The notes under the pieces: generated by a model
Seen by the model: only the letters and a program-made list of their open reading frames with translations
The model's database searches: none
Told to the model about the DNA's origin: nothing
NCBI GenBank assembly: GCA_015472025.1
Contig: BNHL01000001.1
Coordinates: 2,778,001 to 2,842,000 of the forward strand
DNA from: Cytophagales bacterium WSM2-2
Lineage (GTDB): Bacteria > Bacteroidota > Bacteroidia > Cytophagales > Cyclobacteriaceae
Direction: 5' to 3'
DNA: 64,000 nt
Shown here: in pieces, positions 9,011-12,561 of the stretch
How positions within the stretch are numbered: position 1 is the first letter of the stretch
How the letters are laid out: each line of letters opens with the position of its first letter
Program-made: the position numbers and the translations under genes

Positions 9011-9403
9011 GGGGCTGACCGGTTTTGACAGGATGTTCGGGGGTGTATGCCAGCATGCAAGCTCATGAGGGTAGAGCTTTGAACACTGCTCTCAAACCAA
9101 TAAGTGGCGAGAATACTTACGCCATGGCTGCTTAATCTGACCTAAGGTTAGACAAGCTTATCTACTGATAAGATCGGTAGAAGCCATCATCGCCCACACT
9201 TCTGTTTAGCGGGTGTGGATCAGCGGTGTCGACAGCATAAACTGGGCCCCGTTGTTGTTGCGCAACGATGTCGAGATAACAGTAACTAAGGAGTCAATCA
9301 GGCTGTTGATAGCCTTGTGATTCCCGACAATCAAAATCAACTAAGCATGTAGAACGTACACGTTCGTCTTCTCTGGACCAGGGTTCGATTCCCTGCAGCT
9401 CCA
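9011..9403 (+). ncRNA. ssrA: tmRNA (transfer-messenger RNA)
   Basis: Begins GGGGCUGACC and ends GGUUCGAUUCCCUGCAGCUCCA; the 5' GGGGCUG pairs over 7 bp with CAGCUCC (9396-9402) to form the acceptor stem, and the T-arm is intact. The 3' CCA is not encoded (ACTC follows), so it must be added. The tag reading frame is at 9106-9135. The RNA is charged with Ala, rescues stalled ribosomes with SmpB and marks nascent chains for proteolysis. Length (393 nt) is normal. A terminator follows at once, and the 3' end is duplicated 346 bp downstream. Confidence 0.97.
9106..9135 (+). other. tmRNA proteolysis-tag reading frame
   Basis: From GGC at 9106 to TAA at 9133-9135 the frame encodes GENTYAMAA. Together with the charged Ala this gives the tag (A)GENTYAMAA. 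The common Bacteroidota form is GENNYALAA, so the differences are Asn to Thr and Leu to Met. Confidence 0.88.
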
Positions 9404-9438
9404 CTCGGCCGCCATAGCTTTAGCGAAGGCGGCCTTTT
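9392..9438 (+). repeat. Direct repeat, left copy: tmRNA 3' end plus terminator
   Basis: A 47-nt stretch starting CCTGCAGCTCCAC (the tmRNA 3' acceptor strand) and running through the GGCCGCC...GGCGGCC hairpin and T-run. It matches 9738-9784 with only two mismatches (9406 and 9419). The hairpin arms at 9407-9413 and 9428-9434 followed by TTTT are the terminator of the tmRNA gene. Confidence 0.9.
9407..9438 (+). terminator. Terminator of the tmRNA gene
   Basis: Perfect 7-bp GC stem GGCCGCC / GGCGGCC with a 14-nt loop, followed by TTTT. It begins 4 nt after the mature tmRNA end. Confidence 0.8.
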
Positions 9439-9466
9439 AATTTAAGCTTAAATAAACTCTCAGAAA

Positions 9467-9704
9467 ATGTGGTATGTGTACGTCTTACTTCTAAGCAATG
9501 GAGATTATTACAAGGGATGCACCAATGATTGGGAGAGAAGATTGAGCCAGCATCAGAATGGGCAAGTTGAATCAACAGCCGGAATATCAGCCGCTCGATC
9601 TTGTCACCTACGTTGCATTTACTGACAAATCGAAAGCTTTTGAGTTCGAAAAGTACTTGAAAAGCGGTTCGGGCAGAGCGTTCTTAAAACGACATTTTGT
9701 TTAA
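9467..9704 (+). pseudogene. GIY-YIG nuclease family gene, frameshifted
   Basis: From ATG 9467 the frame reads MWYVYVLLLSNGDYYKGCTN, then DWERRLSQHQNGQVEST, the start of a small single-domain GIY-YIG (UPF0213-type) protein, then runs into a stop. The +1 frame continues the protein from YQPLDLVTYVAFTDKSKAFE to KYLKSGSGRAFLKRHFV and a stop at 9704. The total of 238 bp is one base too many, so a single-base insertion near 9595-9605 breaks the gene, unless it is a sequencing error. It sits exactly between the two copies of the tmRNA-end repeat. Confidence 0.85.
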
Positions 9705-9737
9705 TTCTCTGCCTTCGCTGAAGCTTCGGCAGATGAA

Positions 9738-9784
9738 CCTGCAGCTCCACTTGGCCGCCATAGCATTAGCGAAGGCGGCCTTTT
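9738..9784 (+). repeat. Direct repeat, right copy of tmRNA 3' end plus terminator
   Basis: 47 nt matching 9392-9438 at 45 positions, including the tmRNA acceptor-stem 3' strand (CCTGCAGCTCCAC) and the terminator hairpin (9753-9759 with 9774-9780) followed by a longer T-run. It is not attached to any RNA gene here: the sequence upstream (CTTCGGCAGATGAA) lacks the T-arm. It therefore looks like a detached copy generated by insertion or duplication. Confidence 0.9.
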
Positions 9785-9883
9785 TATTTTGGAACAACTC
9801 AGCTCGTCACAAATTTCTCATTGCCTAACAAATTATTATTTACATTTACCATCAATAAGTTCTTTGTTTAATTTCTTATCAAC

Positions 9884-10053
9884 CGAAAAAGGTTTTGCTT
9901 AACTGCGAATTAATAGGGAATCGTGTTTAAATCACGAGCTGTCGCGCAACTGTAAGTAACATTTTGGTTTCATCACGTAATAAGCCCACTGTTCCTGCAA
10001 AGGAATGGGAAGGGCGATGAAGCTGTTACAAGCCAGGAGACCTGCCTGTTTCG
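9884..10053 (+). promoter_or_regulatory. Cobalamin (adenosylcobalamin/B12) riboswitch
   Basis: Contains the conserved blocks in order: AATAGGGAA (9912-9920), GCGCAACTGTAAG, GCCCACTG, GGGAAGG and the B12 box AGCCAGGAGACCTGCC (10031-10046). P1 can form between CGAAA (9884-9888) and TTTCG (10049-10053). It lies upstream of metE. B12 binding is expected to switch off the B12-independent methionine synthase when the B12-dependent enzyme can work. A possible upstream promoter is TTG (9821) and TACATTTA (9841-9848), but its 17-nt spacing is short. Confidence 0.95.
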
Positions 10054-10239
10054 ATCTGCCCGCAAGGGCAGAAGTTGACAATGCTTTCGCGATCTGAAGC
10101 AACTGTCAGGAGACATGCAAAGAAGACCAGCCTGGTTTTTCGTGCGTCAATCCTTTCTGTTATTTCATTTCGTGCCGGCATTGTGAAGTTTCTGCAAAAG
10201 AGCTTTTAACTCATGTTCAACTAAAACAGTTAAAAGAAA
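10054..10239 (+). promoter_or_regulatory. metE leader / riboswitch expression platform
   Basis: Between the aptamer and the metE start. It holds a TCTGCCC/GGGCAGA hairpin with a GCAA loop (10055-10072), a near-copy of the B12 box (GTCAGGAGACATGC, 10105-10118) and a weak AAGACCA/TGGTTTTT hairpin near 10121-10141. No strong terminator or clear sequestered ribosome site is obvious, so the switching mechanism cannot be assigned. There is no open reading frame of note here. Confidence 0.5.
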
Positions 10240-12561
10240 ATGCAAACGCACAATCTTGGCTACCCGCGCATTGGTAGTCATCGAGAACTCAAGAAGGCCA
10301 GCGAGCAATTTTGGTCAGGAAAAATCACGGTCGAAGCCCTGATAAAAACAGGAAGTGAAATCCGAAAGCACAACTGGCAATTTCAAAAGGATGCCGGCAT
10401 AGACCTGATCCCATCCAATGATTTTTCATTCTACGACCAGGTACTCGACACCTCTTTCATGGTTGGTGCAATACCAGAACGTTACCATGATGTAATCCTT
10501 GACAAAAAGAATTCAGAACTCGATCTCTATTTTGCTATGGCACGCGGATATCAAAAGGACGGTCTTGATATCACCGCCATGGAGATGACGAAGTGGTTCG
10601 ATACCAACTACCACTACATTGTGCCTGAGTTTACGAGAGATCAGAAGTTCAGATTGTTCTCAGATAAGGTGGTGATTGAGTATGCAGAAGCAAAAATGAA
10701 TGGATTCAGTACCAAGCCGGTCATCGTAGGGCCAGTGTCCTATTTGTTGCTTGGCAAGGAAAAGGAAAACGGCTTTGACCGGATTGACCTGATCAAAAAT
10801 CTGCTGCCTGTTTACATCGATGTGTTGAAGAAACTCGAAAAACAAAATGTAGAATGGGTGCAGTTTGATGAGCCGTTCCTGGTGATGGATTTAGAAGACA
10901 AGGTCAGGGAAGCATTCAGTTATGTCTATTCAACTTTAAAAAAGGAATTCCCTTCCATCAAAATAATGGTGGCGACTTATTTCGATGGACTTAGGAATAA
11001 CCTGGATACGGCCACAGCTTTGCCAGTTTCAGCACTCCACGTTGACCTGGTTCGTTGCCCGCAGCAATTGGATGAAGTATTGAAAGCCCTTTCTAAAAAC
11101 ATGAAGCTTTCATTGGGCGTAGTGGAGGGAAGAAATGTATGGAAAAATGACTTTCATCAATCCCTGGAGTTGATCAACCGGGCTGTAGATAAAATCGGTT
11201 CGGATCGCGTATTCATTGCACCCTCTTGTTCATTGCTGCACTCCCCATGCGACCTTGAACTGGAGGAAAGCGAAAACCTGAGCGATGAAATAAAACAATG
11301 GCTCTCCTTTGCAAAACAAAAAATTGCAGAGGTGGTTTCACTGAAACAACTCGCCTCACCGGAAGAGAGCAAACTGGCCATGCCCAAATTAGCGGCAAAC
11401 CAACTGGCAATCGAAAGCCGGAGAGTGTCGAAGAAGATCCATAATGATTTAATAAAAAAACGAGTTGGATCGATCACCGATGCTGATGCGAAAAGGACAA
11501 GTGTTTTTGCCATTCGGAAAAAGAAACAACATGAAGCTCTTCGCCTCCCGATGTTTCCGACAACGACCATCGGTTCGTTTCCTCAAACCACCGAGGTACG
11601 CGCAGCTAGGGCGAAATTGAAGAAAGGTGATATTACCGAAGGGCAGTATGACACTTTCATCAGGCGTGAAACTGAAAGCGCCATTCGTTGGCAGGAAGAA
11701 ATTGATATTGATGTTCTGGTACACGGAGAGTTTGAGCGCAACGACATGGTGGAATATTTCGGTGAACAAATGAGTGGATTTGTTTTTACACAAAACGGGT
11801 GGGTTCAGAGTTATGGAAGCCGGTGTGTTAAACCTCCGATTATTTACGGAGACGTTTCACGTCCGGAACCAATGACAGTCGAATGGTCAGCGTATGCGCA
11901 GTCATTGACAAAAAAACTGGTGAAGGGAATGCTCACCGGGCCTGTAACGATTCTTCAGTGGTCTTTTGTGCGCAATGACCAGCCACGTTCTCAGACTTGC
12001 GCCCAGATAGCCCTGGCGATCCGCGATGAAGTAATTGATCTTGAGAAAGCAGGTATTCGCGTCATTCAAATTGATGAACCTGCTATCCGGGAAGGTTTGC
12101 CGTTGCGAAAATCAGACTGGCAGGAATATTTGCAGTGGGCAGTAAGATCGTTCCGGATTTCAAGCAGTGGAGTGAAAGATGAAACACAAATTCACACACA
12201 CATGTGCTACTCGGAATTCAACGACATCATCGAGAACATTGCCGCAATGGATGCAGATGTGATAACCATAGAATGTTCCAGATCTCAAATGGAGTTGTTG
12301 GATGCGTTTGCCGACTTCAAGTATCCGAATGAGATCGGACCCGGTGTTTATGATATTCATTCACCCCGTGTACCATCGAAAACCGAGATGGTGAGTTTGA
12401 TGGAGAAAGCAGTAGCGGTTGTCCCTGCAGATCAGCTTTGGGTCAATCCGGATTGCGGTCTCAAGACTCGTCATTGGGATGAAACAAAGAAGGCGCTGAT
12501 TGAAATGGTGGCAGCTGCCCGCGAACTCCGTGAATCGATCAAGGAACCATCGATTATTTAA
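10240..12561 (+). CDS. metE: Cobalamin-independent methionine synthase
   Basis: A 773-residue protein matching MetE length. It transfers a methyl group from 5-methyltetrahydropteroyl-triglutamate to homocysteine. The N-terminal half starts HNLGYPRIGSHRELKKA, and the catalytic half begins FPTTTIGSFPQTTEVRAAR. Zinc ligands are present: H654 and C656 in HTHMCYSEF, and C739 in NPDCGLKTR (equivalent to E. coli H641, C643 and C726). Expression is controlled by the B12 riboswitch upstream, and a terminator follows. No anomalies seen. Confidence 0.97.
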   Translation: MQTHNLGYPRIGSHRELKKASEQFWSGKITVEALIKTGSEIRKHNWQFQKDAGIDLIPSNDFSFYDQVLDTSFMVGAIPERYHDVILDKKNSELDLYFAMARGYQKDGLDITAMEMTKWFDTNYHYIVPEFTRDQKFRLFSDKVVIEYAEAKMNGFSTKPVIVGPVSYLLLGKEKENGFDRIDLIKNLLPVYIDVLKKLEKQNVEWVQFDEPFLVMDLEDKVREAFSYVYSTLKKEFPSIKIMVATYFDGLRNNLDTATALPVSALHVDLVRCPQQLDEVLKALSKNMKLSLGVVEGRNVWKNDFHQSLELINRAVDKIGSDRVFIAPSCSLLHSPCDLELEESENLSDEIKQWLSFAKQKIAEVVSLKQLASPEESKLAMPKLAANQLAIESRRVSKKIHNDLIKKRVGSITDADAKRTSVFAIRKKKQHEALRLPMFPTTTIGSFPQTTEVRAARAKLKKGDITEGQYDTFIRRETESAIRWQEEIDIDVLVHGEFERNDMVEYFGEQMSGFVFTQNGWVQSYGSRCVKPPIIYGDVSRPEPMTVEWSAYAQSLTKKLVKGMLTGPVTILQWSFVRNDQPRSQTCAQIALAIRDEVIDLEKAGIRVIQIDEPAIREGLPLRKSDWQEYLQWAVRSFRISSSGVKDETQIHTHMCYSEFNDIIENIAAMDADVITIECSRSQMELLDAFADFKYPNEIGPGVYDIHSPRVPSKTEMVSLMEKAVAVVPADQLWVNPDCGLKTRHWDETKKALIEMVAAARELRESIKEPSII

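Follow-up and report, generated by a model that had tools for sequence, protein, structure and literature searches.

The window, a stretch of 64,000 nucleotides from Cytophagales bacterium WSM2-2 (contig BNHL01000001.1, positions 2,778,001 to 2,842,000), contains on its forward strand a tmRNA gene (ssrA, 9011–9404), which is identified by ARAGORN with the tag GENTYAMAA and matched by Rfam RF00023 in the whole genome. The gene is uninterrupted and apparently intact, and it is probably the target of the element described here. Its final nucleotides (9392–9404, forward strand), comprising the 3' strand of the T-stem, the 3' strand of the acceptor stem and the discriminator of the working tmRNA, form copy 1 of a direct repeat of the tmRNA 3' half, with the same class of boundary as at other RNA genes; this copy is inferred to have come with the element. 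Directly downstream lies hairpin L (9407–9434, forward strand), GGCCGCC-ATAGCTTTAGCGAA-GGCGGCC followed by a T-run, with a folding energy of −9.9 kcal/mol (z −2.3), which most likely serves as the tmRNA terminator as well as the left hairpin of the element. Hairpins resembling it are found at the same spot in other phyla and also behind the tmRNA of element-free relatives. A GIY-YIG nuclease pseudogene (9467–9704, forward strand) follows, and behind it stands hairpin R, CTGCCTTCGCTGAAGCTTCGGCAG (9709–9732, forward strand), an inverted imperfect copy (17/20) of hairpin L. Hairpin R is the probable right end of the element, and the unit would thus also be bounded by inverted hairpins. The other matches to its palindrome pattern in the 5.5 Mb genome are only the two copies of hairpin L at this locus. 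The idea that the palindromes belong to a high-copy REP family was rejected, as the genome has only a handful of them; the pattern of hairpin R has three matches in total, all at this locus.

The displaced tmRNA 3' half, together with a second hairpin L, occupies 9738–9784 on the forward strand. Positions 9392–9438 and 9738–9784 differ by exactly two mismatches in 47 positions; when extended to 9392–9443 and 9738–9789, the repeat is identical at 49 of 52 positions with a spacing of 346, and 100 shuffles produced zero matches. The repeat has its start at the junction of the T-loop and T-stem, 12–13 nt short of the tmRNA 3' end. The whole inferred unit accordingly spans 346 bp (9392–9737, forward strand), as given by the repeat spacing and in keeping with tandem units of ~320–390 bp elsewhere, in the order RNA 3' half, hairpin L, GIY-YIG gene, hairpin R. 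An earlier sequence-only reading of this region had reported a 47-nt tmRNA 3'-end repeat with two mismatches around a frameshifted GIY-YIG gene; this held, and it is refined here by the start of the repeat relative to the tmRNA end and by the second, inverted hairpin at 9709–9732. The same reading had proposed a recent event or gene conversion, which remains possible, being neither supported nor excluded; the similar hairpin behind both window copies could also fit a site marked by an earlier insertion.

The nuclease gene is recognized by PF01541 through HMM matches in two frames, at 1e-6 for the 52-aa first part of the open reading frame and at 1e-11 when both frames are read through. Positions 1–40 and 39–73 of the GIY-YIG domain lie in different frames; therefore, a single frameshift near 9585 is real in the assembly, and the window copy of the element is decayed. 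By eye, the broken nuclease resembles the intact tmRNA-linked proteins (L034/L068) and the Ser(gga)-linked proteins, and it was left out of the protein tree. An assembly artefact at this locus was considered and is very unlikely, since the same layout with an intact gene is present in two other assemblies (L068/L180 and L034/L181). Further downstream, the leader at 9890–10140, before a metE-like open reading frame (10240–12561), looks by eye as if it might be a cobalamin riboswitch.

The 5.5 Mb genome contains six PF01541 matches, two of which are in long proteins (open frames of 648 and 456 aa), while the remaining ones are the window gene, a gene behind tRNA-His, and a gene with a second broken copy behind tRNA-Asn. 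These three small GIY-YIG loci are all located directly behind an RNA gene (tmRNA, tRNA-His and tRNA-Asn). The tRNA-His locus reads tRNA, terminator, GIY-YIG gene, palindromes, and a second tRNA 3' end with terminator; the tRNA-Asn locus contains an intact unit, then another that is broken, and additional tRNA pieces. Among all 42 tRNAs checked, a nearby copy of the 3' end exists for His and Asn alone, with no displaced copy at the other 40 tRNAs of the genome (0/40). Since only tmRNA, His and Asn show each feature, the RNA genes bearing a GIY-YIG gene and those with a displaced 3' end are the same three.

PF01541 genes are present in all 58 genomes of the genus that were searched, with 2–14 matches each, several of them in tandem with a period of ~320–390 bp. 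Genomic context was evaluated at 65 small GIY-YIG loci from 13 well-assembled genomes, including that of the window, which were not chosen by context. A same-strand tRNA or tmRNA gene called by ARAGORN lies within 250 nt of 45 of the 65 loci (39 at most 250 nt downstream of such a gene and 6 only upstream of one), and an opposite-strand RNA gene was near none of them (0/65). Beyond the GIY-YIG gene, a displaced piece of the RNA gene was detected at 31 of the 45 RNA-linked loci versus 8 of 234 with swapped loci; a significant displaced copy was absent at 14 of the 45. For 20 of the 65 loci, no RNA gene was found within reach. Some of these are at contig ends or reflect genes missed by ARAGORN, and many constitute a separate clade among palindromic repeats; one locus (L068) adjoins a tmRNA that ARAGORN missed, which adds at least one further RNA-linked locus. 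Rfam gave no other relevant non-coding RNA beside the GIY-YIG genes without a tRNA.

RNA-linked GIY-YIG units elsewhere measure ~330–400 bp with GIY-YIG as the sole gene, and their tandem arrays, consisting of 2–3 near-identical units, contain no integrase. At some loci, the GIY-YIG reading frames extend into the displaced RNA sequence. Of 46 displaced copies, 40 have their start 11–31 nt away from the RNA end, which places it within or next to the T-arm, and the exact position is typical of the target or lineage. The loci of the upstream type are mirror images, in which a displaced tRNA 5' half is followed by the GIY-YIG gene and then by the complete tRNA; mirror-image elements were noted at L017, L023, L024, L032, L037, L067, L072, L074, L086, L105 and L161. 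Separately, palindromes such as CCTGCCTGCCGGCAGGCAGG were observed inside displaced tRNA pieces (L032, L037, L043, L074, L086 and L001), where they interrupt the pseudo-tRNA at the D-loop, anticodon loop or T-loop and, in arrays, are present in each unit.

The presence of such units was compared at orthologous sites. Relatives in which both flanks of tRNA-Ser(gga) are readable were sorted by eye on printed sequences, and of these 22 sites, 9 are empty, 5 are occupied by lineage A, 3 by lineage B, 2 lack the gene but retain a displaced 3' half, and 3 retain hairpins only. At the empty sites, the downstream gene region starts 10–154 nt behind the tRNA. Lineages A and B belong to different branches of the protein tree; the displaced halves of lineage A mostly start at TCGAATCC in the T-loop, and those of lineage B 13–15 nt from the tRNA end. 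As in the window, inverted hairpins are situated at both ends of the element at the tRNA-Ser(gga) sites. In four genomes (L243, L246, L247 and L248 in G011, G050, G012 and G042), the tRNA-Ser(gga) gene is inverted with respect to the conserved flanking genes, and recombination between the inverted hairpins could conceivably account for such inversions.

At the tmRNA site, an upstream glycosyltransferase gene is common to 22 loci, and of about 47 genomes only 3 have a GIY-YIG gene behind tmRNA, i.e., that of the window and two close relatives, in both of which it is intact. The metE-like downstream gene of the window was unmatched at the tmRNA loci of relatives within the fetched stretch; as no empty tmRNA site with this flank was available, the borders of the element were defined at tRNA-Ser(gga). 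In several relatives, the tmRNA 3' end is repeated in tandem or present as one displaced copy, with no gene alongside (e.g., L128 and L141), and at L114, L117, L122 and L128 it recurs in short repeats together with a hairpin but no nuclease gene (~36-nt period in L128). The gene-less copies may be scars or, alternatively, non-autonomous derivatives. In one genome (L008:1580-2033, G011), the tmRNA is followed by an apparent CRISPR array with a repeat of ~47 nt, GTTGTGATTTGCTTTCAGATTGTGTTCTTTGATAGATTGCATACAGAC.

Behind a tRNA-Leu (L014), three tandem units share one terminator, and the last displaced tRNA 3' end has another; thus, both the RNA 3' half and the terminator arrive with the unit. At L029 as well, the displaced copy carries a terminator unlike that of the upstream copy. 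No recent DNA-level transfer between distant genomes was found. Two candidates for such transfer were rejected: the near-identical elements of G007 and G041 have similar flanks too, and the genomes look like sister species, while L215 and L217 represent one contig binned into two MAGs. The latter pair shares 5.2 kb (99.98% identical), one MAG being labelled Curtissbacteria and the other Spechtbacteria, which reflects a binning error in the public collection.

Across 47 related proteins, the catalytic residues Y5, Y15, G17, H29 and E61 are invariant. Most of the nucleases comprise 78–95 aa, which is essentially the GIY-YIG domain of 72–78 positions alone, and a separate DNA-binding region such as that of I-TevI, a typical though not a defining trait of free-standing GIY-YIG homing endonucleases, is absent from these proteins; the choice of target is therefore unexplained by a bare catalytic domain. 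By sequence profile, the closest solved relatives are UPF0213 (1zg2 at 1e-18, and 1ywl) and SLX1, ahead of I-TevI. No intron family was detected in the loci scanned with Rfam, among which the window was not included.

A tree of 176 proteins was built from few alignment columns, and many of its forks are unresolved. It nevertheless contains clades tied to one RNA, namely Met(cat), His, Phe, Leu(caa), Pro(cgg), Pro(tgg/agg), Lys, Asp, Val, Gly and Arg(acg), plus a cluster in which tmRNA and Ser(gga) elements are frequent, and several target clades extend across families of the phylum. When each locus is represented by a single row, the tree requires 39 target changes versus 71 ± 2.3 under label shuffling (the lowest of 300 shuffles being 63), and within the genus alone 29 versus 42 ± 1.0. 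Each nuclease lineage thus appears mostly to keep to one RNA gene, which is the likely reading. The match between clade and target supports target recognition without proving it alone, since vertical descent at fixed sites adds to the same signal. A separate clade of ~35 small GIY-YIG genes lacks a nearby RNA gene, and many of its members are found among interspersed palindromic repeats (e.g., L025, L027, L038, L041, L046, L050, L071, L080, L154, L157 and L160), which include CACCCTGAGCTTGTCGAAGGGC and GGCTTCGACAAGCTCAGCCTGACA. The arrangement of this clade is suggestive of REP/RAYT with a GIY-YIG enzyme, an assignment that remains tentative.

The layout is also not confined to the phylum. A search with one intact tmRNA-type protein as the query matched 62 loci in named genomes, including the genus members G007 and G041. 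The matches in Bacteroidota fall in Flavobacteriales (including Flagellimonas and Christiangramia strains), Cyclobacteriaceae and Roseivirga, and further matches were obtained in Verrucomicrobia, Planctomycetes, Acidobacteria, Alphaproteobacteria, Lentisphaerae and candidate phyla. Within 250 nt upstream and on the same strand, 18 of the 62 loci have a tmRNA and about 16 more a tRNA, others being cut by contig ends. At many loci, a CCTCCGAAGC..GCGAAGG-type hairpin stands at the start of the leader, at the RNA 3' end, and is followed by a GTGGAC..GTCCAC hairpin and then the gene. Displaced halves are visible at some cross-phylum loci (L183); at L191, L193 and L204, none is visible, and the RNA 3' end is itself the point where the repeat starts. 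No relative was found in the viral contigs scanned for phage carriage, and the relatives in phages and plasmids (19 phage records and 6 plasmids) are only distant (<60% identity).

Taken together, the window interval is best explained as a decayed minimal mobile element that colonizes tRNA/tmRNA 3' ends in a homing-like, RNA-gene-specific manner; this reading is likely, with cleavage and copying being inferred. The unit, ~330–400 bp, comprises the 3' half of the target RNA from the T-arm to the end, a terminator-capable hairpin, a GIY-YIG protein of ~80–95 aa and usually a second hairpin. Comparison shows its anatomy, its occupied, empty and scarred sites, its target-specific clades, its tandem units and its intact relatives in several phyla. 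At orthologous RNA genes, some relatives have the unit and others lack it; where present, it leaves the RNA gene complete and a 3' half displaced. In the proposed mechanism, the nuclease would cut within or close to the T-arm of the target RNA gene, and double-strand-break repair from an occupied copy would install the unit, i.e., homing. The incoming 3' half would rebuild the RNA gene, which would therefore stay usable, and the native 3' half would be pushed downstream as a fragment; tandem units may arise by unequal recombination or repeated insertion. The mirror-image elements, with their displaced 5' half, are outside the direct reach of a model based on a T-arm cut.

The sequence-only reading had suggested that the unit might be a mobile or homing-type element of minimal size, aimed at RNA 3' ends or carrying them, which is supported by further units of like layout in the same genome (tRNA-His and tRNA-Asn), in the genus and in other phyla, and by the comparison with insert-free relatives, which revealed empty, filled and scarred orthologous sites. 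It would have been refuted by an arrangement fixed at one place in all relatives without other copies, or by an artefact, and neither is the case. Its alternative, a decayed island with att-like repeats, held only for the decay, as intact units without an integrase occur elsewhere.

Several rival explanations must be weighed against this reading. A SegB-like local amplification, in which a cut beside the RNA gene and short-homology repair duplicate the RNA 3' half plus the gene, would make the nuclease an amplifier rather than a traveller. It is favored by the arrays of 2–3 near-identical units, by the published SegB amplification through tRNA/segB microhomology (PMC13096335) and by the GIY-YIG frames that run into displaced RNA sequence; however, the empty sites and the two lineages at one tRNA-Ser gene require a gain step, the terminator of the displaced copy can differ from that of the upstream copy (L014 and L029), and the tmRNA layout is common to unrelated phyla, leaving this explanation unlikely. 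Also unlikely as a whole is a structure-specific nuclease of the SLX1/UPF0213 type, acting on hairpins or cruciforms including the T-arm and mobilizing hairpin-bounded DNA in the manner of REP/RAYT without sequence-specific homing. It gains support from UPF0213 proteins and SLX1 as the nearest solved relatives ahead of I-TevI, the missing DNA-binding domain, the inverted hairpins at both ends, the palindromes at loop positions in displaced tRNA pieces and the sister clade among interspersed palindromic repeats. Against it, clades largely specific for one isoacceptor are unexpected from pure structure recognition, and palindromes are rare genome-wide in the genome of the window. For the choice of target alone, recognition of DNA structure is a serious alternative because of the UPF0213/SLX1-like profile and the palindromes at unit ends and in tRNA pieces.

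The direct repeat of the tmRNA 3' end is the classic att layout and would suit the remnant of a conventional integrative island at tmRNA. However, the intact units are 330–400 bp with GIY-YIG as the sole gene, tandem units lack an integrase, and the target is tracked by the GIY-YIG proteins and not by a recombinase, making such a remnant very unlikely. An ordinary host DNA-repair gene of the UPF0213/YhbQ type, placed behind RNA genes by chance, has in its favor the domain similarity to UPF0213, but it is all but excluded by the 45 of 65 loci beside same-strand RNA genes with none opposite, the displaced copies, the presence or absence at orthologous sites, the pseudogenes and the arrays.

The homing-like element therefore remains the preferred reading. 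A bolder version, advanced here only as a possibility, is a cross-phylum class of elements, each made of one bare GIY-YIG domain in ~350 bp at tRNA/tmRNA ends and rebuilding the RNA gene, that recognizes DNA hairpins or T-arm structure and not sequence alone, and whose enzyme family is also responsible for spreading the palindromes interspersed in Bacteroidota genomes. The homing-like element, if confirmed, would represent an integrase-free way to colonize tRNA/tmRNA genes, which are among the commonest bacterial insertion sites, and the elements would be among the smallest candidate autonomous mobile elements. A set of bare GIY-YIG nucleases with one RNA gene each would provide natural material on how an 80-residue domain finds its target, and the elements may account for the RNA 3'-end fragments, hairpin terminators and small GIY-YIG genes scattered in many bacterial genomes. 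No prior description of such elements was found in the open-access literature searched, which left most subscription papers and preprints uncovered; this is no proof that a description does not exist.

Among known systems, tyrosine-recombinase islands and prophages target tRNA/tmRNA 3' ends, where the incoming 3' half restores the gene and direct repeats result. The present element shares with these islands the RNA 3'-end target, the restored gene and the flanking direct repeat of the RNA 3' end; unlike them, it has no integrase, measures ~350 bp instead of kilobases and encodes a nuclease only, the units of 320–390 bp having room for GIY-YIG alone. REP/RAYT systems combine short palindromes with one small enzyme gene, a Y1 transposase. 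The likeness lies in the short palindromes with one small enzyme gene and in the sister GIY-YIG clade among interspersed palindromes, whereas here GIY-YIG, the only gene in the unit, replaces the Y1 (HUH) transposase, which is absent, and the element is tied to RNA genes. UPF0213 and SLX1 are closest in solved structure by sequence profile, yet they are treated as host proteins, in contrast to the present nucleases, which behave as mobile, target-linked genes.

The nearest tested case for the proposed homing is SegB of phage T4, a GIY-YIG homing endonuclease with its target in a tRNA region (PMC2988022). The SegB of T6, located beside tRNA genes, drives tandem amplification of tRNA-Tyr plus segB in experiments, which requires the SegB active site and recombination functions (PMC13096335), and the cleavage sites of free-standing phage enzymes are hundreds to thousands of bp away from the gene of the enzyme (PMC2988022). 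Like SegB and other free-standing GIY-YIG homing endonucleases, the present nucleases are encoded outside introns and beside tRNA genes, form tandem units of RNA plus nuclease, and are inserted between genes conserved in relatives. The traits of a free-standing homing gene are met, namely a GIY-YIG active site that is intact in relatives (frameshifted in the window), no intron or intein, and both occupied and empty sites. Although cleavage and transposition are inferred and neither has been observed, the element is thus likely to be classed with the free-standing homing endonuclease genes as a variant. Unlike SegB, a phage gene, this variant is chromosomal, encodes ~80–95 aa, keeps mostly to one RNA gene, and carries and rebuilds the RNA 3' half within a hairpin-bounded unit.
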